Source: Bacillota bacterium (GTDB lineage Bacteria > Bacillota > Dethiobacteria > DTU022 > UBA8154). Taken from it: a stretch of DNA of 46,809 nucleotides. The stretch is taken from positions 1 through 46,809 of the forward strand of contig DUNV01000096.1 in assembly GCA_012839215.1 (NCBI GenBank), given 5' to 3'. Numbering within the stretch: the stretch's first letter is position 1; every line of letters begins with the position of its first letter. The notes beneath the pieces were generated by a model. The model was given only the letters and a program-made list of their open reading frames with translations, was not told the DNA's origin and did no database searches. Position numbers and translations under genes: made by a program. Positions 12,374 through 19,873 of the stretch are shown here, one piece after another.

Positions 12374-12402
12374 TTGACAAAGCATGGGGAATGATGTAAC
12401 AT
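12374..12402 (+). promoter_or_regulatory. Sigma-A-type promoter for the molybdenum cofactor cluster
   Basis: A perfect TTGACA at 12374-12379 is followed after 17 bases by TAACAT at 12397-12402. It lies 44 bases before the small Cys-rich gene. The spacer between the FapA gene and this point also has a short hairpin (CCTAAT 12310-12315, ATTAGG 12321-12326) without a T run, so readthrough from the upstream operon cannot be excluded. Confidence 0.7.
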
Positions 12403-12445
12403 TTTTTGTGTAAAGAGAGCCAGCTCGAAAGGGGAGGAATTTTTA

Positions 12446-12613
12446 GTGGAAGAGATTAAAAAAAGTTTGCAGGAAGCATCCCCCGAGGGTAAAATAGCCT
12501 GCCCTATATGTTTTAAAATAGCCCGTAAGCATAATTGTTCCGTGGCGGAAATTGGTGAACTTTGCAACCAGTTAAAAATCAAAATTATGGGTTGCCAATT
12601 AGGTTGCTTTTAA
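12446..12613 (+). CDS. Small Cys-rich protein (55 aa) opening the Moco operon
   Basis: GTG 12446 is preceded by GGGGAGG at 12431-12437. The 55-residue product has five Cys: a CPIC pair (19-22), Cys31, Cys40, and a C-terminal GCQLGCF (Cys50 and Cys54). The middle, FKIARKHNCSVAEIGELCNQ, reads like a small helix-turn-helix of the winged-helix kind. From memory, short clostridial proteins ending in CQLGCF occur near molybdenum genes, but I cannot verify that here. It is too small and Cys-rich for an enzyme. A metal or Fe-S sensor, or a small regulator of molybdenum genes, is an inference from motif and place. It is immediately followed by moeA (33-base gap). Confidence 0.75.
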   Translation: MEEIKKSLQEASPEGKIACPICFKIARKHNCSVAEIGELCNQLKIKIMGCQLGCF

Positions 12614-12646
12614 TTTGGGGCGGGTCCTATTTTGGGTGGTAAGTAT

Positions 12647-13888
12647 ATGCTAACCGTACTAACTGTTGATGAAGCGCAAAACCGGGTTCTTTCCTCGATG
12701 GGGGGGAAAACGGTGGGGGCGGAAGAGATAGATATTTTTGCTGCCCTGGGCCGGGTGCTGGCTGGGGATATTTTTTCACCCGGGCATATCCCACCCTTTC
12801 CCCGCGCAACGATGGACGGTTTTGCCGTAAGTAGCTCTGATACGTTTGGTGCAACGGAGGATATCCCCGCACTTTTAATGCTCAAAGGGGAAATCCTTAT
12901 GGGTCTGCCCCCGCCGGGGGGGCTAGCTATGGGAGAAGCCATGAGCATATCTACTGGGGGTATGCTGCCTTCCGGGAGCGATAGTGTGGTTATGGTGGAA
13001 CACTGCGATATTCTGGGCGATCAATTGGCGGTTTACAGGCCGGTTGCACCATTGGAGAACATGATCCTTGCCGGCGATGACTTCCAAAAAAATGAGATCG
13101 TGTTAAGAAAAGGCCATCTTCTTAGATCGCAGGATATTGGTTTGTTAGCGGCCCTGGGGCTTTTGCAGGTAAAGGTGTACAAAAGGCCCAGGGTTATTAT
13201 TATCTCCACTGGAGATGAGCTGGTCACTCCGGATAAGAATCCGGGGCCTGGGCAGATCAGGGACATTAATGGATATGCGCTTTATGCCCAGGTGTTGGAA
13301 AATGGGGCAGAGCCGCACTACCTGGGACTTTTTCCCGATAGAAAAGATGCTCTCCTTGAGGTGCTGCAGGACTCATTGCACCAGGCCGATGCGATTTTAA
13401 TCTCAGGGGGCACCTCCGTTGGACGCAGGGATGTTACAGTCCGGGTATTGGATGGTTTGCCCGGTGAAGGCGTTCATTTTCATGGTGTATCCATGAAACC
13501 CGGCAAACCTGTTATCTATGCTACGAGCAATGGTATGCCCATCTTTGGCCTATCCGGGAACCCTGTCTCAGCCATGTTCAGTTTTCTTCTGTTTGTCAGG
13601 CCGCTACTGCGCAGCCTCCAGGGGCTTTCGCCCTTCTTACCCCATCAACCCGGGGTGGAGGCTTTACTGGATACAAACTTCTCTTCCCCGAGTGGAAGGG
13701 AGGATTATGTTCGTGTGGTTCTTTCCCGGGCTAAGGATGGCACCTACGGAGAAAAGCCCCGGGCCACGCCTGTCTTTGGGGTATCCAGTCTATTGCAAAC
13801 GATGATCAAGGGGGACGGGTATTTTGTCGTTCCCAGGGATATAGAGGGGCTGGTCGAGGGCAGTCCTGTGCATGTCATTCTTTTTTAA
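12647..13888 (+). CDS. moeA: Molybdopterin molybdenumtransferase MoeA
   Basis: MoeA inserts molybdate into adenylylated molybdopterin to give active molybdenum cofactor in the cytoplasm. The 413-residue protein has the family motifs ATMDGFAV (54-61), MVEHC (116-120), IISTGDELV, GGTSVGRRD, MKPGKPV and FGLSGNPVSAM in the expected order. These cover the MoeA N-terminal, MoCF_biosynth and C-terminal (domain IV) regions. ATG 12647 is preferred because GGGTGGT at 12634-12640 is well placed; the frame extends back to TTG 12632. It is followed by a second MoeA-type gene, and organisms using both Mo and W often carry two. Confidence 0.94.
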   Translation: MLTVLTVDEAQNRVLSSMGGKTVGAEEIDIFAALGRVLAGDIFSPGHIPPFPRATMDGFAVSSSDTFGATEDIPALLMLKGEILMGLPPPGGLAMGEAMSISTGGMLPSGSDSVVMVEHCDILGDQLAVYRPVAPLENMILAGDDFQKNEIVLRKGHLLRSQDIGLLAALGLLQVKVYKRPRVIIISTGDELVTPDKNPGPGQIRDINGYALYAQVLENGAEPHYLGLFPDRKDALLEVLQDSLHQADAILISGGTSVGRRDVTVRVLDGLPGEGVHFHGVSMKPGKPVIYATSNGMPIFGLSGNPVSAMFSFLLFVRPLLRSLQGLSPFLPHQPGVEALLDTNFSSPSGREDYVRVVLSRAKDGTYGEKPRATPVFGVSSLLQTMIKGDGYFVVPRDIEGLVEGSPVHVILF

Positions 13889-13914
13889 AAAGGCTATCTA
13901 GGAGGTCTTGTTGC

Positions 13915-15846
13915 TTGGAAAGGAAGGTCTATCTTGCAAATACCCCCCTGAAAAAAGCCCAGGAGCTTTTTTTAAATGCTATCAGGCCGTGTAAGATGGG
14001 GGAGGAAAAAATAAAAACAGTCGAATCCGTCGGAAGGGTTACAGCAAAGCCTATTTTTGCACGGCTTTCTTCCCCCCATTACCATGCCTCGGCAATGGAT
14101 GGGGTTGCCGTTAATGCGGCGGACACTTTTGGTGCTTCGCCCACATCCCCATTAAGACTATTTTTGGGTGAAAACGCCTTTTATATTGATACCGGTGGTG
14201 CTTTACCCAAGGGTTGCAATGCAGTAATTATGATCGAGGAGCTTTTTTCCCCGGAAAAGGTAAACCCTGCCATCCTGGAAATTCGCCAGCCGGCAACTCC
14301 CTGGCAGCATGTTCGCTCCATCGGGGAGGACATCGTCGCTGGTGAAATGATTTTACCATCCTATCATCTTATCCGCCCCCTGGATATCAGTTCCCTGCTC
14401 AATAGCGGGATTTTTTCTATCGATGTTTTGCGGAAACCCCGCGTGGGGATTATCCCTACGGGTACCGAGCTTATTCCGCCGGATAGTGATCCCGGGTCAG
14501 GTCAGATCATCGATTCAAATTCCGCTGTCTTTGCTGCTTTCGTGGATGACTGGGGCGGGGTGCCCCGAAAGTTGCCGATACTGAGGGATGATTTTCAACT
14601 GTTAGAAAATGCTCTTTCCCAAGCCGCGGAGGAAAACGATCTTGTACTCATCAGTGCAGGATCCTCAGCCGGCCGGAAAGACCATACATTTGGTGTACTC
14701 AGTAAATTGGGTGAAGTACTGCTTCACGGGGTGGCCATGCGCCCGGGCAAACCTGTCGTGCTGGGCAGGATTGGTACTACCCCTATTGTGGGTATTCCTG
14801 GCTATCCCGTGGCAGCTTTTATGGCCCTCGATCTCTTTGTTAAACCCCTCCTGTTCCACTGGCGTAGACAAAATGTTTTGCCCAAGGAGTACTTGGAAGC
14901 TACCATTTCCAGGCGCCTAGTTTCATCTCTAAAAGAGGAAGAATTTTTGCGGATGAAAATAGGCAAAGTGAAAGATAAATTTGTGGCCACTCCCCTCCCC
15001 CGGGGGGCAGGGATCAGCATTTCTCTCGTCCGGGCGGATGGGCAGGCGGTTATCCCCCAGAATGTGGAAGGGCTCGAAACGGGCCAAAACGTTCGGCTAG
15101 AGTTGTGGCGCCCCCGCCAGGAGGTGGAAAATACCATTGTTTGCCTGGGCAGCCATGATTTAAGCCTCGATATACTTGCCGATTTTTTGAGAAAAGAGGA
15201 AAAAGGGTATACTTTATCCTCGGCCCATGTGGGAAGCATGGGCGGCATCATGGCGCTGAAAAGGGGCGAGGCCCACCTTGCCGGAATGCACCTTTTGGAT
15301 CCTGCTACGGGCCTTTACAATGTTTCCTACCTGCAGCGTTACCTACCAGAAGAGGAATTAACGCTGATCCATCTGGCCCAGCGTGAGCAGGGTTTGATGG
15401 TGGCGCCGGGGAATCCCAAAAAAATATCCGGTTTTAGGGATCTTTGCCGTTCCGGTATTGTTTTTATCAACCGCCAGAAAGGGGCCGGGACGCGCCTTTA
15501 TCTGGACTTTGCCCTGCAGAAAGAAGGGCTGGATCCGAAGGATATTGTGGGTTATAACCGTGAGGAATTCAATCACTTAGCTGTGGCCGCCTCCGTTGCC
15601 GCCGGGAGCGCGGATGTTGGCCTGGGGATCCGTGCTGCAGCCGATGCTCTTGGTGTGGATTTTATCCCTGTGGCACATGAATCCTATGATTTGGCTTTGC
15701 CGGGGCACTTTTTTAACTCCCCTCCCTGTCAGGCTCTTCTAGAAATTATCGGATCAGCATCCTTTAGGATAGCTATGGAGAAAATGGGGGGGTATAACCT
15801 GGAACAAAGTGGCCAGATTATCTGGCGTTCCACGGAAAATGTTTAG
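13915..15846 (+). CDS. MoeA fused to a periplasmic-binding-protein-like domain
   Basis: Residues about 10-410 form a second MoeA unit (SAMDGVAV at 59-66, IIPTGTELIPPDSDPGSGQI, SAGSSAGRKD, MRPGKPV, IVGIPGYPVAA). Residues about 420-640 form a PBP-like substrate-binding domain of the molybdate-sensor type, with ENTIVCLGSHDLSLDIL, RGEAHLAGMHLLDPATGLYN and INRQKGAGTRLYLDFALQ. There is no signal peptide, so the whole 643-residue fusion is cytoplasmic. The known MoeA-PBP fusion of anaerobes and archaea has this layout. Binding of molybdate, tungstate or another ligand by the tail is an inference. TTG 13915 follows AGGAGGT at 13900-13906. Confidence 0.9.
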   Translation: MERKVYLANTPLKKAQELFLNAIRPCKMGEEKIKTVESVGRVTAKPIFARLSSPHYHASAMDGVAVNAADTFGASPTSPLRLFLGENAFYIDTGGALPKGCNAVIMIEELFSPEKVNPAILEIRQPATPWQHVRSIGEDIVAGEMILPSYHLIRPLDISSLLNSGIFSIDVLRKPRVGIIPTGTELIPPDSDPGSGQIIDSNSAVFAAFVDDWGGVPRKLPILRDDFQLLENALSQAAEENDLVLISAGSSAGRKDHTFGVLSKLGEVLLHGVAMRPGKPVVLGRIGTTPIVGIPGYPVAAFMALDLFVKPLLFHWRRQNVLPKEYLEATISRRLVSSLKEEEFLRMKIGKVKDKFVATPLPRGAGISISLVRADGQAVIPQNVEGLETGQNVRLELWRPRQEVENTIVCLGSHDLSLDILADFLRKEEKGYTLSSAHVGSMGGIMALKRGEAHLAGMHLLDPATGLYNVSYLQRYLPEEELTLIHLAQREQGLMVAPGNPKKISGFRDLCRSGIVFINRQKGAGTRLYLDFALQKEGLDPKDIVGYNREEFNHLAVAASVAAGSADVGLGIRAAADALGVDFIPVAHESYDLALPGHFFNSPPCQALLEIIGSASFRIAMEKMGGYNLEQSGQIIWRSTENV

Positions 15847-15867
15847 TAAGACAAAGAGGTGTTTGTG

Positions 15868-16386
15868 GTGACAGATGTTCAAAAAACTGAGGTACCAATT
15901 CGGGTTGCTGTCCTAACCGTCAGCGATCGGGGAGCACTTGGGGAAAGAGAAGATCTGAGTGGAAAAGTGATTATAGAAATAGTGGAGGAGCAGGGATGGG
16001 AAGTTATTTATTATGATGTTGTACCTGATGACGTTGAGCTGCTCAAAGAAGAACTGCAAAAGCTTGCGGATGTAACCCAGGCCTCTCTCATACTTACCAC
16101 AGGGGGGACAGGAATCGCCCCCAGCGATTTTACCCCGGAGGCAACTCTAGCCATTATCCACAAGGAGGTACCGGGCCTGGCTGAGGCCATGAGAAAAGAA
16201 AGCATGGTGAAAACCCCCCATGCCATGCTTTCCCGGGCAGTGTGCGGCATTAGAGGAAGTACGCTTATTATCAATCTGCCGGGCAGTCCCCGGGCAGTTC
16301 GCGAATGTCTGGAAATTGTTCTCCCAGCCATCCCCCATGCTGCCGATTTGCTGCGCGGAGCCGTCACTGATTGTGGCACCCCATAA
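15868..16386 (+). CDS. Molybdopterin adenylyltransferase-type protein (MoaB/Mog)
   Basis: The product is about 172 residues and consists of one MoCF_biosynth domain. Motifs are LTVSDRGALGEREDLSG, TTGGTGIAPSDFTPEA and NLPGSPRAVRECLEIVLPA. Members adenylylate molybdopterin before MoeA inserts the metal; MoaB and Mog cannot be cleanly separated by eye. The region GAGGTGTTTGTGGTG contains several GTG codons. GTG 15868 (or 15865) fits the ribosome site AAAGAGG better than GTG 15859, which overlaps it. It is the last gene of the Moco cluster, 21 bases after the MoeA fusion. Confidence 0.9.
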   Translation: MTDVQKTEVPIRVAVLTVSDRGALGEREDLSGKVIIEIVEEQGWEVIYYDVVPDDVELLKEELQKLADVTQASLILTTGGTGIAPSDFTPEATLAIIHKEVPGLAEAMRKESMVKTPHAMLSRAVCGIRGSTLIINLPGSPRAVRECLEIVLPAIPHAADLLRGAVTDCGTP

Positions 16387-16615: not shown

Positions 16616-16642
16616 TTAGCACTCACTTTTAAGGAGTGCTAA
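16616..16642 (+). promoter_or_regulatory. CIRCE operator (HrcA binding site)
   Basis: TTAGCACTC at 16616-16624 and GAGTGCTAA at 16634-16642 are perfect inverted repeats separated by nine bases, identical to the CIRCE consensus. HrcA binds it and represses groESL until heat or unfolded protein occupies GroEL. hrcA itself is not in this window. Confidence 0.97.
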
Positions 16643-18889: not shown

Positions 18890-19873
18890 TTGACGAATGA
18901 ATTGAGGAATAGGGTGGTGGAACAGACCATGAAAAAGTTTGTGGAAAAAAGCATAGAAGAAATACGCCAAACATTGGGGAGCGAGGGAAAGGTTGTCTGT
19001 GGCCTGAGCGGGGGGCTCGACTCCTCGGTTGCTGCAGTTTTGGTTCACCGGGCCATTGGGCCACGTTTAAACTGCATCTTTGTCGATAATGGCCTCTTGC
19101 GCAAGGGGGAAAAGGAGCAGGTGATCAGAACTTTTGGGGATAAGTTTCAAATGAAACTTATTGCTGTGGACGCCCGGGATGAGTTTTTAGACCGCCTGCA
19201 AGGAGTTACCGATCCGGAGGAAAAAAGGATGATTATCGGCCATCATTTCATCCGTGTCTTTGAAAGGGAGGCCGAAAAAATTGGTAATATAGAGTATCTT
19301 GTCCAGGGGACGCTTTATCCCGATATTGCCGAAAGCGGAACTGCCAGCGCACCTGTTATTAAATCCCACCATAATGTGGGGGGACTGCCCAAGGATATGA
19401 AGTTTTCCTTGCTCGAACCCCTAAAAACCTTGTACAAGGACGAGGCGCGCCAGTTGGCTTTGGAGCTGGACCTTCCAGAGGAAATTGTCTGGAGGCATCC
19501 CTTTCCCGGTCCCGGTCTGGCCGTGCGCATTTTAGGCGAGGTAACAAGGGAGAAAGTGGCCATCCTGCTGGAGGCGGATGCCATCGTTATTGAAGAGATC
19601 AAAAAGGCGGGACTTTACAGAGAAATTTGGCAGGCTTTTGCCGTCCTTCCCAACATTCGCAGTGTCGGGGTAAAGGATGGGAAGCGCCTCTATGGTCACA
19701 CCATTGCCCTGCGGGCTGTTACCAGCCAGGATGCCATGACGGCAGACTGGTACCGTATGCCCTATGAGGTTTTGGAACGCATTTCCAACCGCCTACTTGG
19801 GGAAATCCCCGAGGTTAACCGCTTTGTTTATGATATGTCTACTAAACCACCTTCAACGATCGAATTTGAGTAG
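18890..19873 (+). CDS. guaA: GMP synthase ATP-pyrophosphatase subunit (no glutaminase domain)
   Basis: This is the synthetase half of GuaA, which turns XMP into GMP using ATP and ammonia. The PP-loop SGGLDSS is at residues 40-46. The C-terminal dimerisation domain is complete, with [16 protein letters not shown], then [19 protein letters not shown] and the end [11 protein letters not shown]. Typical bacterial GuaA is about 510 residues because of an N-terminal class I glutaminase domain. This product has 327 and no such domain, and the 219 bases upstream hold only the groEL terminator and a TATAAT. The archaeal-type two-subunit layout is the nearest parallel. The start could be TTG 18890 or ATG 18929. 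The ammonia source is unknown. Confidence 0.92.

Follow-up and report, generated by a model that had tools for sequence, protein, structure and literature searches.

The Small Gene and Its Operon

The window analysed here, a stretch of 46,809 nucleotides from a Bacillota bacterium, contains a short open reading frame that is preceded by a promoter and a ribosome-binding site and followed by genes of molybdenum cofactor (Moco) synthesis:

12374..12402, plus strand: operon promoter TTGACA-N17-TAACAT (agrees with the consensus at 10 of 12 positions; recurs in 18 of 22 same-family genomes)
12430..12437, plus strand: ribosome-binding site AGGGGAGG, read directly, ending 8 nt before the GTG
12446..12613, plus strand: ORF of the cysteine protein ("CQLGCF" family), GTG start, 55 aa, assigned from conservation and codon pattern
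12632..13888, plus strand: moeA (MoeA_N, MoCF_biosynth and MoeA_C over the Pfam cut-off; likelier start ATG 12647)
13915..15846, plus strand: moeA-PBP, with the PBP-like domain PF12727 (NCBIfam PRK14498 over cut-off)
15859..16386, plus strand: moaB (MoCF_biosynth; Pfam/NCBIfam)

The likelier start of moeA lies 33 nt after the small gene, and the direct linkage to moeA, moeA-PBP and moaB described in a sequence-only reading of this DNA is borne out, all three genes being on the same strand and confirmed by Pfam and NCBIfam models. A groES gene is found 292 nt further on, after moaB; it may not be part of the operon, since it has at 16616-16642 what we take to be a CIRCE operator of its own.

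The small ORF is a real coding gene, because it is conserved and because its differences from 21 same-family orthologues concentrate at third codon positions (386, 116 and 660 differences at positions 1, 2 and 3, respectively), a pattern that rules out a spurious ORF. A minus-strand ORF of 86 aa overlaps the small gene, of which the window's genome has a single copy. The encoded protein has six cysteines (19, 22, 31, 40, 50 and 54), and not the five counted earlier, and ends in MGCQLGCF, so that the C-terminal GCQLGCF was read correctly. A single TTGACA-N17-TAACAT consensus match is weak when taken alone, as 20 such sites occur in the region versus 10.2 expected. A TTGACA-N17-TAnnnT box is, however, present upstream of the small gene in 18 of 22 same-family genomes, 17 times at 55-87 nt before the start, and the promoter and ribosome site claimed for the gene can both be retained. 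No Rfam element, Moco riboswitch included, was found in the window's leader, and no operator was identified when 22 upstream regions were read by eye, where only the promoter box stood out.

A Family of Small Cysteine Proteins

A protein query found the small protein in 54 of the 71 genomes in the same order, and a profile of 18 rows found it in 144 of the 398 genomes in the window's phylum. The profile also recovered it in 36 of 73 genomes (one of them, G526, marginal at E 0.009) of a second phylum, the one holding a MAG filed as Deltaproteobacteria ADurb.Bin026; no relatives were found in viral contigs and plasmids. C19, G37 and C50 are present in every one of 116 distinct domain sequences (100%); L52, G53 and F55 are kept at 97-99%, C54 at 92% and K46 at 90%. 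C54 is retained in 127 of 129 single-domain loci versus only two of nine fused or tandem domains, which points to C19 and C50 as the core pair; two invariant thiols do not by themselves make an Fe-S site.

Three architectures occur. Single-domain proteins are mostly 55-70 aa long; tandem two-domain forms are found in L073 and in nine second-phylum loci (L200-L208); and in six loci the domain forms the C-terminal part of a P-loop protein that resembles MobB. The three fused forms that were scanned score 35.1 (L067), 26.5 (L066) and 25.3 bits (L064) against PF03205, whose cut-off is 26.6; scores against TIGR00176 are 29-40 bits, below its cut-off of 76.2, and a profile comparison with the PDB structure of MobB (2f1r) gives E 4.5e-4. 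Two genomes with fused forms, G293 and G427, have neither MoeA nor MoaC matches.

Searches of Pfam, NCBIfam, PHROG and PDB with the small protein gave no match above cut-off, so that a known family was rejected on sequence grounds, and no MoaD or MoaE match was obtained in Pfam/NCBIfam. Seven of 18 members match DUF7645 (PF24655) weakly, with a best E of 1.9e-4, below the cut-off of 27 bits, and further members reach 13.7-18.8 bits against the same cut-off; the best GntR match, at 20.9 bits (E 2.8e-4), likewise falls short of its cut-off of 27. A search of open-licence PMC text for the motif and for DUF7645 found no description of the small protein, and searches by topic listed no paper recognised as describing it. 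The protein therefore appears undescribed in the library entries and literature found, and would be a new accessory component of a pathway that is itself known.

A structural model built from a three-sequence alignment (mean pLDDT 84.9) places helices at residues 2-11, 19-28 and 33-42 and short strands at 16-18 and 46-48, followed by the CQLGCF tail. The fold so predicted amounts to a bare helix-turn-helix (HTH) whose third helix is acidic or uncharged, in support of the HTH-like middle suggested earlier. Foldseek returned no match to the model at E < 1e-3. The best VIA score, Z 6.4 (rmsd 2.3, 49 aligned), was to NuoE-like N-terminal domains, a value below the Z of 8 under which, according to the tool, a match may reflect a common arrangement. 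NuoE-like subunits of formate dehydrogenase (FDH) and tungsten aldehyde:ferredoxin oxidoreductase (AOR)-type complexes came top, with L11 and homeodomains within about 1.4 Z, and the likeness was set aside as evidence for these reasons. Over the 116 sequences, the third helix has a mean net charge of -0.47 and is positive in 28%, and its exposed positions are variable; such a charge in the predicted helix is not what we would expect of one that reads DNA.

Gene Neighbourhood Within the Window's Phylum

Eighty loci were hand-picked from the profile and protein matches, odd and fused forms first and then one or two per family; L068 was dropped as it had no match, leaving 79 that were counted. 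In 56 of these, moeA lies at most 1 kb downstream on the same strand, with a median gap of 29.5 nt, and these 56 loci often hold a second moeA (54), moaB (48) and a gene for a MOSC protein (32). This linkage is far beyond chance, as we estimate that random placement would account for well under 0.1% per locus, a value inferred from about 2-3 moeA copies per genome of about 3 Mb. The next gene is moaA in a further ten loci (eight recognised by sequence, together with L123 and L141) and moaB is the partner in one more (L136). In total, a Moco-gene operon partner (moeA, moaA or moaB) is found in 67 of 79 loci, which places the small gene in the Moco regulon and upholds, within this phylum, the proposal that the small protein is conserved and linked with Mo-cofactor genes. 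The remainder comprise four loci in which only groES is kept downstream, two near FDH genes (L067, and L077 beside fdhD) and six that have no Mo context (L063, L065 and L069-L072).

The typical long operon has the order small gene-moeA-moeA(PBP)-moaA-moaC-MOSC-moaB (L087, L113), often followed by groES-groEL, and the small gene is normally the first of a Moco operon, directly 5' of moeA or moaA. Of the 66 loci scanned for the Moco riboswitch (RF01055), which are the 79 less L063, L065, L067, L069-L072, L076-L078, L093, L140 and L141, 32 have it at 42-476 nt upstream of the domain; this Moco/tungsten riboswitch is described in PMC2408646. Two other arrangements bring the small gene close to mobB. 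Acetobacterium bakii has a moeA-mobB-MOSC-selA-selB-small gene-P-loop cluster, followed by mobA and FDH genes (names other than moeA were read from the sequences), and L118 has a free-standing MobB-like gene that stops 3 nt short of the small gene, with moeA coming after the latter, a split form that mirrors the MobB-like fusions.

Co-occurrence With Mo/W Enzymes and the Question of MoaE

Across the 398 genomes of the phylum, MoeA is found in 140 of 144 carriers of the small gene compared to 126 of 254 other genomes, and MoaC in 136 of 144 compared to 125 of 254; the p values given in this section treat genomes as unrelated. The profile search for homologues that had been suggested as a check has thus revealed a conserved gene that accompanies MoeA. 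A narrower comparison was made between 30 carriers and 30 non-carriers that have both MoaC and MoeA (MoaC+/MoeA+), hand-picked for diversity. AOR is present in 30/30 carriers versus 20/30 of these non-carriers (p 8e-4, relatedness uncorrected) and FdhD in 28/30 versus 11/30 (p 6e-6, relatedness uncorrected), so that the small gene tracks with users of AOR and FDH. Enzymes of the XDH type do not track with it (13/30 carriers, 22/30 non-carriers). The cofactors of AOR and FDH are bis-pyranopterins.

Canonical MoaE, defined by a match at E < 1e-20, shows the opposite distribution. It occurs in 25 genomes from 12 families, none of which is among the 53 carrier families; within the 253 MoaC+/MoeA+ genomes, it is found in 0/136 carriers versus 25/117 non-carriers (p 9e-10, relatedness uncorrected). 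This exclusion, the conserved thiols and the lead position in the Moco operon would all suit a protein that takes the place of the absent molybdopterin synthase (MoaE, MoaD) in MoaE-less anaerobes, a cysteine persulfide on C50/C54 or C19 giving the dithiolene sulfur. The literature points the same way: MoaE is given as unreported for acetogens (PMC5039349), and MoaD and MoaE as not found in Dehalobacter (PMC4751268). We nevertheless regard such sulfur transfer as unlikely. Neither the small gene nor canonical MoaE is present in 92 of the 253 MoaC+/MoeA+ genomes, which rules out a simple replacement of MoaE, makes the small gene dispensable for cofactor synthesis as such, and means that something else, perhaps MOSC, must do the sulfur job at least there. 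The MOSC proteins encoded in the same operons are equal or better candidates for this role (PMC6147048 and PMC2700814 provide background on the distribution of MoaE and MOSC). Moreover, MoaE is clustered by lineage, so that its exclusion may be phylogenetic, and the MobB-like fusion partner belongs to a later step. A divergent MoaE-like protein is also found in 18 genomes, 17 of them MoaC+/MoeA+, and of these 17, 11 are carriers that have kept it; the divergent MoaE-like profile is matched at full length in 4/52 carriers (with two more fragments) versus 1/28 non-carriers. No degenerate copies of the small gene were detected upstream of moeA at 20 loci of non-carriers (best E 0.074).

The Second Phylum

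None of 20 loci fetched from the second phylum has moeA near the small gene. Directly 3' of it in six of 11 single-domain loci is a radical-SAM gene that is MoaA-like but below the MoaA cut-off, and L190 and L194 have an AhbA-like siroheme-decarboxylase gene in the 3' position (over cut-off in the one scanned); the tandem forms occupy scattered loci with no neighbour in common. Taken together, these neighbours and the lack of moeA indicate that the family reaches beyond Mo metabolism, which is the chief finding against a role confined to Mo. Lack of conservation or of a link to Mo genes, named beforehand as what would speak against the proposal, is not observed inside the window's phylum, but the second phylum does lack the link to moeA at the loci fetched.

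It may be asked on these grounds whether the protein partners radical-SAM or tetrapyrrole/pterin cofactor enzymes in general, similar to an RRE or a redox partner, with MoaA as the original partner and the moeA linkage as a by-product of operon structure. The loci where moaA or a MoaA-like radical-SAM gene comes next speak in its favour, as do the siroheme-decarboxylase-like neighbours and L069, where the C-terminal domain comes after a radical-SAM gene. We consider it distinctly unlikely, given that moeA, moeA-PBP and moaB are consecutive in the window operon and in L082-L084, with no room for moaA between them, and that the MobB fusions involve no radical SAM.

A metal- or redox-responsive HTH transcription factor controlling its own operon, as proposed in the sequence-only reading, would agree with the predicted helix-turn-helix, the sub-cut-off matches to HTH families such as GntR, the first position in the operon and the conserved promoter, but is improbable in view of the net charge and variable exposed positions of the third helix, the Moco riboswitch already present in nearly half of the loci scanned, the fusion to a MobB-like domain, the tandem forms scattered over unrelated loci and the upstream regions in which no operator was identified; the riboswitch, helix charge and MobB-like fusion likewise weaken the idea of a sensor for cofactor synthesis.

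A Possible Role in Cofactor Assembly

The small protein is probably an overlooked helper for cofactor building. More specifically, we would give nearly even chances to its being a dedicated accessory protein with which strict anaerobes assemble Mo/W pyranopterin cofactors. A thiol-bearing adaptor acting alongside MoeA and MobB is suggested by the fusion to a MobB-like domain, the split form, the adjacency to moeA, the invariant thiols and the link with FDH and AOR. Its HTH scaffold would be a protein-docking module and not a DNA reader, allowing the small protein to dock on MoeA/MobB, and the thiols of C19 and C50 (plus C54) might hold or shield a metal, a sulfur species or the dithiolene. They might do so while metal is inserted and the bis-pyranopterin cofactor of FDH- and AOR-type enzymes is put together. 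Two papers bear on these steps: a MoeA1-MobB-FdhD maturation route is described for a tungsten FDH (PMC13197769), and the tungsten cofactor of Desulfovibrio vulgaris AOR requires both moeA and moeA-PBP (PMC10102598). As for the earlier suggestion that the protein carries a metal or sulfur species to MoeA, a partnership with MoeA agrees with where the gene stands in the operon, with the fusions to MobB-like domains and with the cysteines that never vary; the cargo is putative.

A broader proposal, which we think rather unlikely, is that this overlooked sulfur- or metal-handling part lets MoaE-less anaerobes (acetogens and their relatives) make bis-pyranopterin cofactors of Mo or W, perhaps jointly with the operon's MOSC protein, and that the same thiol-HTH module serves radical-SAM enzymes and siroheme decarboxylase in the second phylum, as a general cofactor-assembly module absent from the family libraries. 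In acetogens and Dehalobacter, Moco enzymes are made and yet MoaE is reported as not found (PMC5039349, PMC4751268). A conserved, unnamed protein that heads the operons concerned and never occurs with canonical MoaE in 398 genomes provides a concrete candidate gene for this gap. FDH and AOR are key enzymes for converting CO2 and aldehydes. Getting them matured in other hosts is a bottleneck, for which a missing small factor, if true, would matter.

Comparison With Known Systems

The small protein would share a pathway with MoaD and MoaE, canonical MoaE being absent from carriers, but differs from both in having no sequence match and no C-terminal Gly-Gly, and in its predicted HTH-like fold; the fold of MoaD is a beta-grasp. 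With DUF7645 (PF24655) and with GntR, HTH_24 and other HTH families, it has in common weak matches over the HTH region, which lie far below the cut-offs and stop before the C-terminal CQLGCF. FeoC and PqqD-like proteins are small winged-helix accessory proteins that do not read DNA but assist metal transport or radical-SAM enzymes, and in this respect they are comparable; however, the Pfam matches listed for the scanned members include neither. Finally, six relatives carry the domain C-terminal to a MobB-like P-loop domain (PF03205/TIGR00176), and partner domains are common for MobB, for which NCBIfam lists fusions to an FeS domain (PRK14494), to MoeA and to MobA. The window protein itself differs from MobB in having no P-loop, and its small domain matches none of those models.

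Unusual copies of the cysteine domain

The conserved cysteine domain of the small-gene family, which typically ends in CQLGCF, also occurs in unusual forms within the phylum of the window. In a genome of the same genus (locus L069) it forms the C-terminal part, ending in CWLGCF, of a longer protein, the region ahead of it having no Pfam match:

L069:6245-6988, 247-aa protein with a C-terminal domain

Upstream of this gene lie a radical-SAM gene that resembles AmmeMemoRadiSam, with a score below the cut-off, and an ABC transporter. Loci L070, L071 and L072 carry divergent second copies that have lost the LGCF end, and their genomes possess a normal copy too; the settings of these second copies are unrelated (hemerythrin-like, ArsR-type regulators).

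Neighbors in a second phylum

In six loci of the second phylum (L191, L192, L196, L197, L198 and L199) the small gene is directly followed at its 3′ side by an unnamed radical-SAM family, whose members start with an FGPVPSRRLG-like sequence. Beyond this gene, L196 and L199 have a large gene resembling acyl-CoA dehydratase activases (name assigned by scan in L196). In two others an AhbA/Lrp-like siroheme decarboxylase gene comes after the small gene at a distance of 10-11 nt, the pair being flanked by leuCD/asd-like and polA-like genes:

L190:5716-6418, small gene and siroheme-decarboxylase-like gene
L194:5621-6333, the same pair

Other genes of the window and its relatives

A divergent MoaE-like protein of 130-145 aa is found in L142 and in L143-L159, and is highly conserved (mean column identity 77% in an alignment of 12 rows):

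L142:5310-5723, divergent MoaE-like gene (contig C70, same assembly as the window)

Its gene lies outside Moco operons in all eight loci examined, one neighbor among these being an acyl-CoA-ligase-like gene.

The groES-groEL genes adjoin the Moco operon in the window and in many relatives, with groES within reach downstream in 21 of the 56 small-gene loci that have moeA within 1 kb. Directly upstream of them in the window (16616-16642) lies a perfect CIRCE operator, the HrcA site.

The window also encodes a GMP synthase:

18890-19873, GMP synthase ORF, 327 aa

The Pfam scan found only its ATP-pyrophosphatase and C-terminal domains, and no glutaminase domain, which is likewise absent from two-subunit GMP synthases.
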